Positions 30,155 to 37,325 of a stretch of DNA of 64,000 nucleotides are shown here, piece after piece. How positions within the stretch are numbered: the first letter of the stretch is position 1; each line of letters starts with the position of its first letter. The notes under the pieces were generated by a model. The model saw only the letters and a list, made by a program, of their open reading frames with translations, searched no databases and was not told where the DNA came from. The translations under genes were made by a program, and so were the position numbers. Source of the stretch: Isoetes taiwanensis. Its lineage: Eukaryota > Streptophyta > Lycopodiopsida > Isoetales > Isoetaceae. Location of the stretch: assembly GCA_021234155.1 (NCBI GenBank), contig JAJEKV010000073.1, forward strand, positions 3,630,001 to 3,694,000. Direction: 5' to 3'.

Positions 30155-33100
30155 TTAAGTCATCAAGAAGTACCTTGTTCTAAATTTGGAAGATGATTGA
30201 TTGTACTCTACTTTCTCCATATCGCTAGTGGCAACAGATGCAACAGTGTCTGCCTGTGAAACTGCTCCTTCGGAGGTTTCACTTCCCCCATCCACACCTA
30301 CACTATTCATCACTTCACTAGCGAACAGATCAACTGCTAAATTCTTTGATGAATGGCCACTAGTTTGGTTTTTGATATCTTCTGAACGTTCTAAAAGCAT
30401 TCTATCATTACTGGAGGCACCAATTGAAAGATCGGATAGCTGTTTCGGAACAGACGGCCTCTGAGCAGAATTTATAAGGTCCAAGTCATAACTATCAGAT
30501 TTCATCAAGCCACTTTCCTGCCACGTTTCAAATGTATCATCCAGCAGGAGCAGAGATGTGTCAGTATTGAAATCAGCCAATTCTGTCCATTCAGTCGAGC
30601 ACTCATCTTGATCCAAAACCAAATCATGCAATATCCTTGGCGTAGAACACTGGCTGAAAGCTGTGGCAGGCAAACACATAGAACCTGGGGATGCATTTTG
30701 AACGGAGTTCTTTTTTGTCCAAGACAAGATGCTTTCTCTTGGAGAAACAGGCATTGAATCAGGTTTGATTTCAACAGAGGCAGAGCAGCTCATCTGTGCT
30801 ATATTTCCTACTCCACAGTCCTGAGGAAAAGTTATACAGTCAATAACTTGAGAAATATAATTAATGTATCCTATGAAGAATCTTACATCACCTCAACTAT
30901 GGCTCTTGTGTCCTTAGAGCTTTTCTGCGCCAATAGCATGGATGCCGTTGTATGCACTTGCATCTGCGTTTGCCCATTCTGTTTCTCCATAATCCTTGTG
31001 ACATCAGCTATACCTCGATTAGATTTCATTGTTTGTAGACGACCAATCTCTGCTTCCTTTTTAGCTATAATAGTCTTCATAGATTGCACCTGCATGGTGG
31101 ATAACAAGGCTGTGGTTGAAGGCACGAAAGCTATATGGAGGACTAAATACAACCTTTTAATACACATGATCTCTTACTTGCACTCAGATTAACACACAAA
31201 ATCAGAAGCCCTCATAGAATCTTAAAGAGCTCAAAACAAAATGCAAAGAAAAAGGAGACTGCAAGTGCCAGAAATAACGAGTCCTGTACTGCAAACGATT
31301 GGTTTGTACCCTGCAAAAGAATTTGCAACATCCATACCAACTGAAGATAATTTGACCTGCATGCCTACCCCACCTGGTCCCTTAATTCTCTGACTTCTGC
31401 ACTTTCTTTGTTTTTCCGAGCAGCACCAAGCTCCACAGCGGCAACCCTCTCTGCGAATTTCAAGGTACTTATTGTCTCTCCATATGAACCAGAATCTGGG
31501 CTTATGTGTACAAACATCAGTGTTTTGGCTTGCCCTCCTGAATAGAACAGTTGTCATAACATTAGTACATTCAGCCCCATATGATCTGAACACAAACAAG
31601 AAATCAACCTAAAGAGTCCTGAAGCAGCTGGGTTAATTTGCTGTTCCGATAAGGTATGTGTGGACTCTTCTGCGCCAATGCAGAAATCACATCCCCCAGA
31701 GCTGATAGTGACTTGTTGATATGCTGAGCTTCTTTAAGCCGTTCCCCAGTGGCCTCCGATTTCAAAACTCGTTCACTTCCAGCAAGATCAACCAGATGCA
31801 AACATCCACGAAGAATGGAGCCACTAGTAAGATCTGTACCCTGCACATGCACAGTCAAGACACTACAGGAGAAACTGTAAGCATGGTAGCATGTGTAAAA
31901 AAAATCCATGCATTCCAAGAAAGTACCTATGCGAACGGCTGCTTCGGTCATTTAGAGCAGTTGCTCCAACAGCTCTATTCCTTTGTCCAATAGCCATTAG
32001 TTCGAGGACATTAGCAGTAGAGTTGACTGGCATCATGGTTGCACTTGGCACACTAACTCCATTATTTTTGTTCTTGATCTCAAGTGTAAGAAAATTAAGG
32101 GTCCAACAATGAACACTACTTCAGTAAAATCAATGATGCATCACTTTATGCAGGAAACAAAAGGATATCTTTTAGTTGGCCCATCAGATGCCAGAAGATC
32201 CCGCACTTGTTCATTATAGATCTCAATCATTTGCACCTCAACCTCGTATGCAAAAGTTTTCTGCCTACTTTGAGATATTTCAAAAAGGTCATTTAGAGCG
32301 CGGAAATTGACACCCCATTGGTATTGGGAGGCATTGTCTGGCCCAGTCTAAAGTCACAGGGTTAAAAAACAAAGGTAGAGTATAAGTCCACACCTGCTTT
32401 CATGTCTAGAAACAAACAGAAGCTGTAGCTTAGAAGCATGCTGCAATTCTTTCCCAGATCCACTATAAGCAACAAGACCTAAGGTACAAGTGCACACGTG
32501 GAGTTCTAATACAAATAACTTCAACTCAAGCTCTTGACAAACATTAATCCTACTTTGAGATATTTGGAAAGGCCATAAAGTGCTGAAGTTCACACACCAT
32601 TGGTCTTGCGGGGCATTGTCTGGCCCAGTCTAAAAGCTAAAGGGTAGAGAATAAGTCCACACATGCTTTCGTCTAGAACCAAATAGAAGCTATAGTTTAA
32701 CCAAATAGAAACTATAGTTTAGAGCATGCTGCAATTCTTGCTCAGGTCCATTGTCAAGCATCAAAGCTACAGCACCAAAGGTATGAGAGACACACATGCA
32801 GTTCTTGGCAGACTTGTCGTGTTACCATTCTTTTTTTAGGTAATTAAAGAAGATATACTGTATGCTTTTTGGGAAATGAATAGTACAGATGTACATAGAT
32901 CATCCTCCAGATAAGTTAAAAAAAAAAAAATAATGCCCAAGAGCTGATAACTAAGAACTTGTTATTCAAAATAATTAGTCAGCAATGCCGTCCACATAAC
33001 CATGCCCATCATCAAATAGCGTTGTGGCAAAAAGTCCAAAAGCAGTGCCTTGATAAACCATAGCTTGACCATAGTTGCACCGGAACATAGGATCAGAACA

Positions 33101-36100
33101 GAACGGATCGGAAAATTAAGGAAAAAGCAATGGATTGGACATGCATGCGGATCAAACCCCTTCCGGATCTTTTTTTTTTTTTTGGGTTCTTTGTTTGTGA
33201 TGGAAGAAGCGGAAGACTATGAAACAGAGGTGGAAGATGTGTGGGTGAGTGATGAGGATGAAGAATCTGATGATGTCGATGATGATGAATGATCCAACAA
33301 GTTCTGAATTTTGTATTTAGTACCTAGTACAGTTTCAACAAGTAATAGGCTGCCATGCTAACCTTTACTAGTAAATAAATTTTTTTGTTGCGTTAATGTT
33401 CCGATGCATGTTCCGTTCCTCTCTTTGTTTCGTTTCGTTCCAGATGCATAGGAACACGTTCCGGTGCAACTATGCCCCAGACTCTCTAGAATGCAGGACC
33501 ATTCTAAAAATTGAAAACATTATAAAACCCATTCTTACCATGGTGTAAGTTTTCCCAGACCCAGTTTGGCCATAGGCAAAAATACAGACATTGTAACCAT
33601 CCAAAACAGAACGAATTAGTGGCTGTGTATCCATAAAGATCTCACCTGCATTATTAAGAGTGATCACGGCTTAAAGACAAATTAGATAAGTAAACAGATT
33701 ATAAAGACACTAGGAATGCACCTTGAGAAGAAGATCCACCATAGATCTTGTTAAAAGTAAATGTTTTGCAGGAATCCTTCCCTTGCTTGTTAGGGTTTGT
33801 TATCATGATATCACCATCACTACCAATGAAACTCACAGTACTCTTATCTTCACATTCGCCAGAAAGAAATGGCCTTACTCGACAAAATACTCTGATATTT
33901 CCTGCAAGAATTAACTAGAGTTGAGGGAAAAAGGCAAGGGATGTAAAGCCATCCATCCATATACCTTTTAAATCCTGAACTTCATTGTAAAGCTTGCGGT
34001 TTTCTTCAAGAACTTTATGGTAACCAGATGCTGCTTCTGCCAAGCCTTGAAGCTCAGCCCCTGCAGACAAATGAGCATTTATGGTGGCGATTATTTTGAT
34101 TCAAGTTATTAACATGGTCAAAGATTTGCATTACATTCTTACCAAGACTTCCAAACTCCTCTTTCCACCTATCTTGCATCACTACTATTTCTTGCTTTAC
34201 AGCAACCGATGCAGCCTTTACCTCCTGCATATCACAAATACTCAATATTGCTAAGCCTTTTTTCTTCTAAGGACATTTATTGAACAATTCAAAAATTTGT
34301 CTGACCTGATGGGATTGAGATTGCAAAGATATGATGTGCTTATATTTCATATCGCGTTGTTTTGATATGTTTTTCTCAGTTGTTATGCATGATTCAAGCG
34401 CATCAACTTTCATCTGACCAGCTTCTATCTGTTTTTCCATCTCCAGAACCTTGCTTTTATAGTCCAGTTCTACTTTCTCCTTCTCAATCTCCATTTGATG
34501 CCATTGCTGTTGCTCAAGACTCATTTGACTGATCCTATTCTTCAGTAATTCAACCTCTTCTTGCTTTTTAATGTTTTCCTTTAGCAATCTCTGAATATCA
34601 TCTTCTTTCATTTTCTTCTCATCTTCAAATTTTCTTTTCTCCATCTTCATATTGCATGCAAAATCCCAGTAAGTACATGGTATACATGAGATGATACCAA
34701 AAGATGAATGTAACTATAGTGAAAAGAACATATGCAATGCCATGTCCTTTAATTACTTTATGCAGATATGATGAAGATTTTTTAGATGTTGATGACATAC
34801 CTTAACCCGTTGTAGTTGGATTGCGATCAGCTGCACAAAATAATAGAGAATTAGGCCAGCAATACACAGAATCAAGCAGCACATTTTTTTGCAAGCCTTG
34901 CATACCCTGAGCTCCTCTCCTGAGCCAGCAGCCAAAGCTTCCAAAACCTTTGCCCTTGCAGACAGCCACTCTTCTTGAATAACAAGGTCCTTCAAGACAT
35001 TCTTCAACTACACCAACCAACTTCAAGCGGCAATAATAAGATTATTTGCAAAAGCGGGTGTGTATATCTCTTATTGAAATATCAACTCCACATACCTTTT
35101 TCACCTGATCTCCTCTTGACTTAAGACGGCGTTCAAATTCCTCCATTATCTTTCTCATCATGAACTCTACCAGCTGTAGTTCCACATGAGAATGAGTAGT
35201 TCCACATGAGAATGAGCTGCACAATCATGCCTATAAATACATCTAAGCAATATGGCTCACCATTGGTACTTCTTCAGGCTGTTTATCACTGATGATTAAT
35301 CGTACAAAACTAGGAAGCGATTGCAAAGGTGTATTCTAAAACAAACGGCAAAATTGTTATGCATGAAAAACTACAGATTATCATCCTTCACTGGGAAGAT
35401 AATGTACATTGAGGCTCTTAAGTGATCCACATTGCTCCATGCTTGGAAAATTTTTCGAGCGTTTCACTTGAAGAACCTCAGAAAATTTCTGTCCCATGTT
35501 TTGGATCTGCGTTGCCATTGAGTCTGCAAAAACATTTCCAAATACAAATGCTTCAATTGCAGCTCTGTAATTATTACTGAATTCTAGAGCTACTAAAAGA
35601 CATTACCAGGTGATGTTGACTTATATAAATGCTTTTCTGCAAGCATTGGATCATCAAGAAGCTTCTTCATGCTATCAGAATTGGGCAATGAAGTCTTATA
35701 TACCCCGTCATGCTCAAATTTTAATTGCCTCTCATTAATATCAGCAATATCTGGGATGTTCCATTGTCTTCTTGAAGACTTGATACTCTCATCTCCATAA
35801 AGTACTTTTACAGGAGTTTCTGGTTGGCTTTCATCATACTTCCAAGATTCTGAATCTCCACCTTTTCTCTCGTCCATGTAAGATTTAAGGGCCAATATAC
35901 AATCCACTACTTTTGGAATAGAGCCAGTGACTCCGCAGCCCTGGAAAATATGACAACAATATCAGTATGGCAATAAACTGTGCACAAAAAAACCAAAATG
36001 TTGTGTAGCTATAATCATACCTCATTCAAGTCTGATGCTTCAAATGTGGGAATTTTCAAGCTATTCGCTGCCACTAAGAAATTCCATACATTTTCAAAGT

Positions 36101-36480
36101 ATTGGTAAGCAGACAGAGCCACATCAGGAGGGCTGGGGCTCGTACTTTCCACAATCTGTTAGTGATATTTAAGGTTATAATTGCACCACCAAAGCTTATA
36201 TATGCGAGAAGATATATGTACCCTTGGAACAGAACCAGGACGAATCTTATTGAAAGCTTTGCAAAGCACTATGCCATTCCTCAGACATAATCTCAGCTCC
36301 TCTTCCGTTGGCTGCGTGGGAAGACACGTGTCCCCAAGGACTTCTCGAAGCCATGCTGCTGCTTCGTATCTTCTAATAGCTGCATGACCCAGCCAGACTT
36401 TCCAAATAAGCTGTTTGTAAAGACTAAAAAGTTGGATCGGCAAGTATCTAACCTTCTTCTTCCGCTTTTCTGGAGGCCAT
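30155..36480 (-). CDS. KIN14-like (KCH): Kinesin-14 motor with N-terminal calponin-homology domain, 20 exons
   Basis: This protein would be a minus-end-directed microtubule motor able to bind actin through its CH domain. Exons, high to low: 36480-36453, 36379-36222, 36155-36021, 35940-35607, 35523-35408, 35335-35261, 35173-35096, 35007-34906, 34830-34801, 34644-34306, 34224-34143, 34060-33965, 33901-33722, 33645-33539, 32347-32169, 32085-31927, 31862-31609, 31537-31374, 31089-30892, 30820-30155. They sum to 3480 nt (1159 residues) in frame. Domains: CH (about 10-150, [18 protein letters not shown]), coiled coil (about 290-520), the kinesin-14 neck [15 protein letters not shown], then the motor with P-loop GQTGSGKT (610-617), switch I NDRSSRSH (725-732) and switch II DLAGSER (758-764). 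The Ser/Asp-rich tail (from about 873) is poorly conserved. A neck ahead of the motor marks kinesin-14. One intron is AT-AC type. A last intron in the tail cannot be excluded. Confidence 0.93.
32086..32168 (-). other. AT-AC (U12-type) intron in the kinesin motor
   Basis: On the minus strand the exon ends ...ACTAAAAG, the intron begins ATATCCTTTT and ends TTTTCTTAC, and the next exon starts ACTTGAG. ATATCCTTT is the U12 donor consensus. CCCTTAAT lies 9-10 nt before the end and fits the U12 branch consensus TTCCTTRAY. Joining gives [12 protein letters not shown], the expected motor sequence. Using a nearby GT-AG pair would break the frame. Confidence 0.93.
32540..32629 (-). pseudogene. Duplicated, decayed copy of a kinesin motor exon
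   Basis: The first half of exon 15 (32347-32169) has a second copy about 280 bp away inside the preceding intron. The copy reads [15 protein letters not shown] where the real exon reads [15 protein letters not shown], and it keeps ISQSR before diverging. Flanking intron text (cacacctgctttcatgtctag against cacacatgctttcgtctag) is duplicated too. The acceptor ctag is kept (t-t-t-tag). No intact U2 or U12 donor follows at the matching place. Confidence 0.75.
33070..33474. mobile_element. MITE-like element in a kinesin intron
   Basis: The ends are CATAGTTGCACCGGAAC and an inverted GTTCCGGTGCAACTATG, giving a 405-bp unit inside the intron between exons 14 and 15. It holds a short acidic plus-strand ORF (33200-33292, ending [10 protein letters not shown]-like). 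I see no clear target duplication. The short acidic tail may be a leftover of a transposase C-terminus, by inference only. Confidence 0.7.
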
Positions 36481-37325
36481 TAAAATGTCACCAGAATCAA
36501 TAGATCTAAACACATCTTCCATTATCCTCCAAACAACGAAGCATTTTCACGGTGCCAGAAAGGTCATAAACTAAGCCATCCAAACAATGCCGATTAATCT
36601 CCATCAGCTTCTTTGCACAAAAGAAAACGAGAGAGAAAAAAACACATCTTACTCCATGTTATGTAGGCTAATCGAACACGAATAAAGCCCGACACATTGG
36701 GAAGAAAATTTCTGAGATCCGCTTGACAATTGATCCTGCAGTGATAAATACAGAGCCAGAGCCCGTAGTTCGGTTGCCAAGGTGTTTCGTGAGAGGCACG
36801 ATTGGCGGGAACAAGAACAACAAAATATTGCACGTCGTAGAAAGCAGAGCTCAAGAAAATGAGGATACCGGGACAAGTTGTGATCGTGCTGCCATGCAAA
36901 GTGAAAATGGTTATATTTCGTACGTTATGGTAATTGGATTTACATATATGTGGAAAACTAGATAGACCAAAAACAAAGAGGTGGTTATCTTTCAGTTCGA
37001 TTGTCATTTCCTCTCGTTGTATATAATGATTGGGCTACTAGGCTAATCAACAACTAATGAATAATGATTTTTTTGTTATCAATATGACGTTGAGGCGAAT
37101 AGGATGAACATACAGCCGCTTTGCATGCATCTATCTATCTACCTAGCTATCTATCTATCTATCTACCTATCTATCTTATATTCTATCCTCCTTCTAGAAG
37201 ATTCTTAAGGAATCGCCTAATAAATCTAGCTTTTTAATTCATAATCTAGTCTACTCCCATATCCATCCAAGTACATATGATGATTTTAAGAGTTACTTTG
37301 TGGCTATTGTAATCGAGCGAAATAT
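36481..37325. other. Probable kinesin promoter and 5' UTR region
   Basis: The stretch upstream of the kinesin ATG (36478-36480) has no coding match. A (CTAT)n microsatellite runs 37125-37177. No promoter element can be assigned with confidence. Confidence 0.5.
37125..37177 (+). repeat. (CTAT)n microsatellite
   Basis: About eleven near-perfect ctat/ctac/ctag units. Confidence 0.9.

Follow-up and report, generated by a model that had tools for sequence, protein, structure and literature searches.

The window, that is, the whole stretch of 64,000 nucleotides of Isoetes taiwanensis DNA which was analysed (contig JAJEKV010000073.1, positions 3,630,001 to 3,694,000), carries on its minus strand a CH-domain kinesin-14 (KCH) gene of 20 coding exons encoding 1173 aa (30155..36522), as identified from the exon model together with Pfam. 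The final 20-exon model was set by hand from the output of a custom gene finder and from kinesin homology, whereby exons which the gene finder had placed inside intron 14 were judged false and removed from the final model, and a U12 intron which it had proposed at 36868-35878 was rejected as spurious, the finder's U12 bonus being too high. The model is open throughout and comprises 3522 nt and 1173 aa when counted from the first ATG; a start at the second in-frame ATG (M15) takes away 42 nt and yields 3480 nt and 1159 aa. The first-pass annotation of this DNA had reported a conserved join at intron 15 and a 20-exon frame of 3480 nt, both of which are confirmed, the latter figure being the count from the second ATG. 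Pfam identified a Kinesin domain (2.6e-110, 368.9 bits), a Microtub_bd match (8.6e-43) and an N-terminal CH domain (2.9e-11, 44.0 bits vs a cut-off of 26). That the motor is of the kinesin-14 type is indicated by the Pfam Kinesin match and by its top three solved relatives, namely KIFC3, 1sdm and the kinesin-like calmodulin-binding protein, which we take to be kinesin-14s. The N-terminal CH domain and the central kinesin motor are shared with the OsKCH2-type CH-domain kinesin-14 (PMC5852081); minus-end motility and actin binding would be further traits of a KCH. An Rfam scan of the whole window at gathering thresholds gave no match. Within intron 14, a degenerate second copy of the exon 15 start and its preceding intron was found on the minus strand at 32549-32687; it is 76% identical over 157 alignment columns and probably represents a failed tandem duplication.

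Direct reading and in-silico splicing identified intron 15 as an AT-AC intron of 83 nt, which runs on the minus strand, left unnamed in the first-pass annotation, from 32168 down to 32086 and recurs at the same site in 10 other loci. GT-AG ends are found in all of the remaining 18 introns of the final model. It separates two exons of the motor domain, exon 15 (32169..32347), which ends with DGPTKR, and exon 16 (31927..32085), which extends through SSRSH, both assigned by in-silico splicing and alignment to solved motors. On the minus strand the order is exon 15 ...ACTAAAAG|ATATCCTTTT...GGACCCTTAATTTTCTTAC|ACTTGAGATC... exon 16, whereby GGGCCAACTAAAAG are the last exon 15 letters before the donor; the intron is in phase 2 and splits the codon of R694 after its second base. 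U12-type 5' splice sites follow the consensus RTATCCTT, and the U12-type branch consensus resembles TCCTTRAY, located some 8-16 nt before the intron end. A donor of the U12-type A-subtype, a branch-like site and an AC end were all three read directly: the 5' splice site ATATCCTTTT occupies 32159..32168, while CCCTTAAT holds the branch site CCTTAAT (32094..32100), whose presumed branch A at 32095 lies 9 nt before the end. The 3' splice site is the AC at 32086..32087 (TTTTCTTAC|A), where the cut adds no residue before LEI; cutting instead at the AC of 32101 would keep the frame as well, but gives extra residues. Joined at its AT-AC ends the reading frame is preserved, and the spliced product matches the solved motors 5wde (KIFC3), 1sdm and 3h4s (kinesin-like calmodulin-binding protein) across the exon junction. 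Translation of the retained intron adds 8 residues, followed by a stop, and yields a product of 702 aa, hence a full-length motor needs intron 15 to be removed. With A-subtype AT-AC and AT-AN U12 introns the window intron has the ATATCCTT donor, the CTTAAY-like branch 9 nt from the end and the AC terminus in common, and as an 83-nt intron in a coding region it shows no structural difference from them.

The combination of U12 motifs was matched 3 times in the window vs 2.85 times on average in 60 first-order Markov controls, which is chance level, and 2 of these 3 matches are intron 15 itself with alternative ends. The significance of the motif was therefore not taken as proof; the proof of intron 15 is comparative and lies in the site shared among KCH-type loci. 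All introns were also compared which lead from exon 15 to exon 16 with an open frame, amounting to 85 in-frame introns of the classes GT-AG, GC-AG and ATATCC...AC/AA, with the likeness of the product to three reference motors serving as score. The AT-AC intron 32168-32086 came out on top (154.7), second and third place were taken by introns with the identical donor and other ends (148.3 and 145.7), and the best GT-AG intron scored 142.3, with 'LE' becoming 'YPF'. By position and product, intron 15 is beyond chance, and direct reading and this ranking bear out the claim of an 83-nt AT-AC intron inside a kinesin-14 motor.

At the protein level, 124 matches were found in the same genome, not all of which were fetched; next to the window, the analysis covered 45 kinesin loci (sets of 15, 19 new ones and 11, with L046 overlapping L018). 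ATATCCTT stands exactly at the junction in 11 of the 11 KCH-type loci that could be matched on both sides (the window, L005-L009, L010, L055, L058, L059 and L060), the donor being constant throughout; these loci represent four lineages (window, L005-7, L008, L009) of one genome, with 7 of the 11 being copies of the L005 lineage. L005 (C1039), L006 (C940), L007 (C1054), L008 (C1034) and L009 (C985) carry it at the identical codon position, whereby the codon before the intron contributes AA of Lys in these five loci and AG of Arg in the window. It is likewise present in L010 (C235), a near-identical, frame-broken copy of the window gene, and in L055, L058, L059 and L060, four copies of the L005 type with a broken frame. 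When the genome was searched with a pattern derived from L005-L007, 5 matches were obtained vs 0 for the reversed control pattern, and two of these four copies (C970, C1007) were recovered in this way as well. CH-domain exons were found upstream in L005, L008 and L009, and it is from similarity to these three that L006, L007 and the frame-broken copies were labelled KCH. The flanking exons are 70-78% identical between the four lineages, and the intron interiors, computed minus the first 10 and last 20 nt, show 41-52% identity, with no pair above the best of 50 shuffles. Outside the count of 11 stand L012, L013, L056, L057, L061, L062 and L063, which are KCH-like and were matched downstream of the junction only, as well as L064 and L065, in which the junction was not matched; an occurrence of ATATCCTTG elsewhere in L064 was judged to be chance. 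No obvious intron was seen at the site in L014, L019, L029, L030, L031, L038 and L043, with some of the alignments gapped; among the other kinesins, the alignments read through the site cover these seven. The U12 class, which the first-pass annotation had assigned from the minor-spliceosome pattern, is upheld by ATATCCTT in all 11 KCH-type loci, and the idea of an old intron by paralogues in the same genome, not by orthologues; that the intron is common to the other CH-domain kinesin-14 loci readable at the site goes beyond what had been claimed.

Two observations concern the copies themselves. L010 (G000:C235:9300-10800) is a second copy of window exons 15-18, 97.2% identical but interrupted by 26 gap openings and by frame breaks at several points, and the interior of its intron 15 is identical to that of the window; it is either a pseudogene or a poorly assembled copy. 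The L005 lineage (L005-L007, L055, L058, L059 and L060) counts at least 7 copies in the genome, all with an AT-AA minor intron, and 4 of them are frame-broken at the stretch read.

The cut which adds no residue before LEI falls after AC in the window, L008 and L010 and after AA in the other 8 loci, while the other in-frame AN-ended cuts in the 11 loci bring in extra residues. In two lineages only AT-AA ends permit a join free of extra residues, and AT-AA is given in PMC10639083 as the most frequent of the non-canonical minor termini in plants, accounting for almost 75% of such introns. The branch-like A lies 9, 9, 9, 9, 10 and 9 nt from the end in the window, L005, L006, L007, L008 and L009, respectively; L008 has a second site of equal branch score 4 nt from the end. 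With GTAAGG of the U12 RNA the window branch site forms 5 Watson-Crick pairs and 1 G-U pair, a pairing equalled by 191 of 1000 shuffles (344 of 1000 for L008, 264 of 1000 for L009), and it stands out only in the L005-type copies, for which 4 to 17 of 1000 shuffles were as good. As proof, U12 pairing thus did not pass the shuffle control in the case of the window, L008 and L009. In view of this control, it is the sequence and the position of the branch site that back the U12 reading, and not how strongly it pairs.

The genome itself holds a minor spliceosome by the RNAs expected of a host of U12-type introns, with four minor snRNAs matched above cut-off, namely U6atac (8 matches, 90 bits), U12 (2, 107 bits), U11 (1, 67.7 bits) and U4atac (1), the last being barely over its cut-off (53.7 vs 53 bits). 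Near its start the U11 locus has AAAAGGG, which is complementary to the CCTTTT of the donor when read by eye; between the donor and the U6atac copies found, pairing by eye was weak and not convincing. Among the proteins, CCDC84/CENATAC-family matches were obtained at 8 places in the genome, and L048 (G000:C1100:6899500-6901200) is a TXNL4B/DROL1-like gene, TXNL4B/DROL1 being the tri-snRNP protein with a link to AT-AC introns; when joined, the pieces of this gene reach 146 bits against TXNL4B vs 66 against the major-class U5-15kD protein. Loss of CENATAC in human cells leads to retention of A-type (AT-AN) minor introns, as reported in PMC8280824, and AT-AC introns are mis-spliced in Arabidopsis DROL1 mutants according to PMC11039992; the KCH intron probably relies on the CENATAC/DROL1 branch, as judged by analogy.

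Considering this, we hold it to be very probable that intron 15 is a genuine A-subtype U12 intron in an intact KCH gene, which goes back to the ancestor shared by the CH-domain kinesin-14s of this genome and has been kept by selection on the 5' splice site, the 3' end region and the frame. From its class features, splicing by the minor spliceosome appears near certain. In the suggested course of splicing, ATATCCTTTT would be recognised by U11 and then, probably in this order, by U6atac, while U12 would pair with CCCTTAAT; the cut at TTAC would join K693/R694 to LEI and restore the motor domain. Were the intron kept, the frame would close 8 codons further on, within the motor and ahead of SSRSH and DLAGSE, presumably switch I and switch II. 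The same A-type intron is present in all KCH paralogues readable at the site, for which reason these genes would rely on the minor spliceosome together. The use of these splice sites and their effect on kinesin output we infer from class features and comparison.

It was also considered that the intron, though real, acts as a regulatory switch by which KCH motor output is kept low in certain tissues or under certain stresses. The early stop upon retention of intron 15 would suit such a switch, as would the lower usage of AT-AC sites in plant RNA-seq (PMC6310983) and the less efficient splicing of A-type introns in human cells (PMC8280824). The sequence, however, bears no mark of regulation, the interior being within shuffled similarity across lineages, and constant splice signals are expected of any coding-region minor intron, which leaves the switch unlikely. 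One A-type minor intron common to the KCH genes is the better-grounded reading as compared to the idea of the first-pass annotation, possible in itself, that splicing here may be slow or regulated and the gene sensitive to minor-spliceosome state. Decay of the window gene, with an intron that has no present function, is suggested by the frame-broken family copies in the genome (L010, L055, L058, L059 and L060) but is very improbable given the open 1173-aa frame of the window copy, its 20 exons and its CH and motor domains. Slightly less probable still is an intron of the major spliceosome, in which the resemblance to AT-AC arises by accident and splicing uses a nearby GT-AG pair: the GT-AG intron 32158-32079 is stop-free, in frame and preserves most of the product (142.3 vs 154.7), and the U12 motif taken by itself does not exceed chance in the window, but the GT-AG donor GTTTCCTG is poor compared with the usual U2 consensus, the conserved LE is lost, and the paralogues keep ATATCCTT at the AT-AC site. 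A U2-dependent AT-AC intron can be set aside almost entirely, as, although a few major-class introns also have AT-AC ends, PMC2831892 gives G at +5 as the mark of this rare subclass in sodium channel genes, while C occupies +5 in the ATATCC found here.

A genuine U12 intron inherited within the KCH family being preferred, the question of its age leads to the malectin-type kinesin-14 L011 (C1046), whose N-terminal domain was identified by Pfam as Malectin (1.1e-22). L011 has an intron at the identical codon position and phase (AA|G TTG GAA), and L011 and the KCH genes also agree in the exon edges that follow SRSH and QDSLG, for which reason the common intron position is probably inherited. L011 differs from the KCH genes in that its intron is of the major class (GTAAGT...AG, U2-type) and in having a malectin instead of a CH domain. 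According to PMC2831892, introns are considered more likely to change from minor to major than the other way round, yet this is rare for AT-AC introns. A tentative suggestion, which we regard as possible but doubtful, is that the minor intron is older than the CH/malectin split, gave way to a GT-AG intron in the malectin type and persisted in all KCH lineages despite AT-AC/AT-AA switches, with the KCH family forming a joint CENATAC/DROL1 target without a buffering paralogue.

Searches of open-access main texts brought up no paper that links a minor intron to a kinesin of plants, and the intron may well be listed already in a supplement or minor-intron catalogue; it is a further intron of a known kind, with a neat pattern across the KCH family. 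Impaired U12 splicing harms growth in Arabidopsis, as stated in PMC4892727, in which the word kinesin is absent. If the whole KCH family has the intron, growth and division defects under weak minor splicing could partly reflect the simultaneous loss of several KCH motors. The intron in itself offers a clean, testable target of the minor spliceosome in a plant-specific motor family. AT-AC, AT-AA and GT-AG at one position moreover make up a compact natural series for changes of minor-intron ends or class. For annotation, a gene finder limited to GT-AG introns would mis-build KCH genes with this intron. In L009 (G000:C985:18080400-18082000) the intron measures 113 nt and permits a residue-free join only with AT-AA ends, and GT-AG-only annotation of this gene would result in a wrong model.
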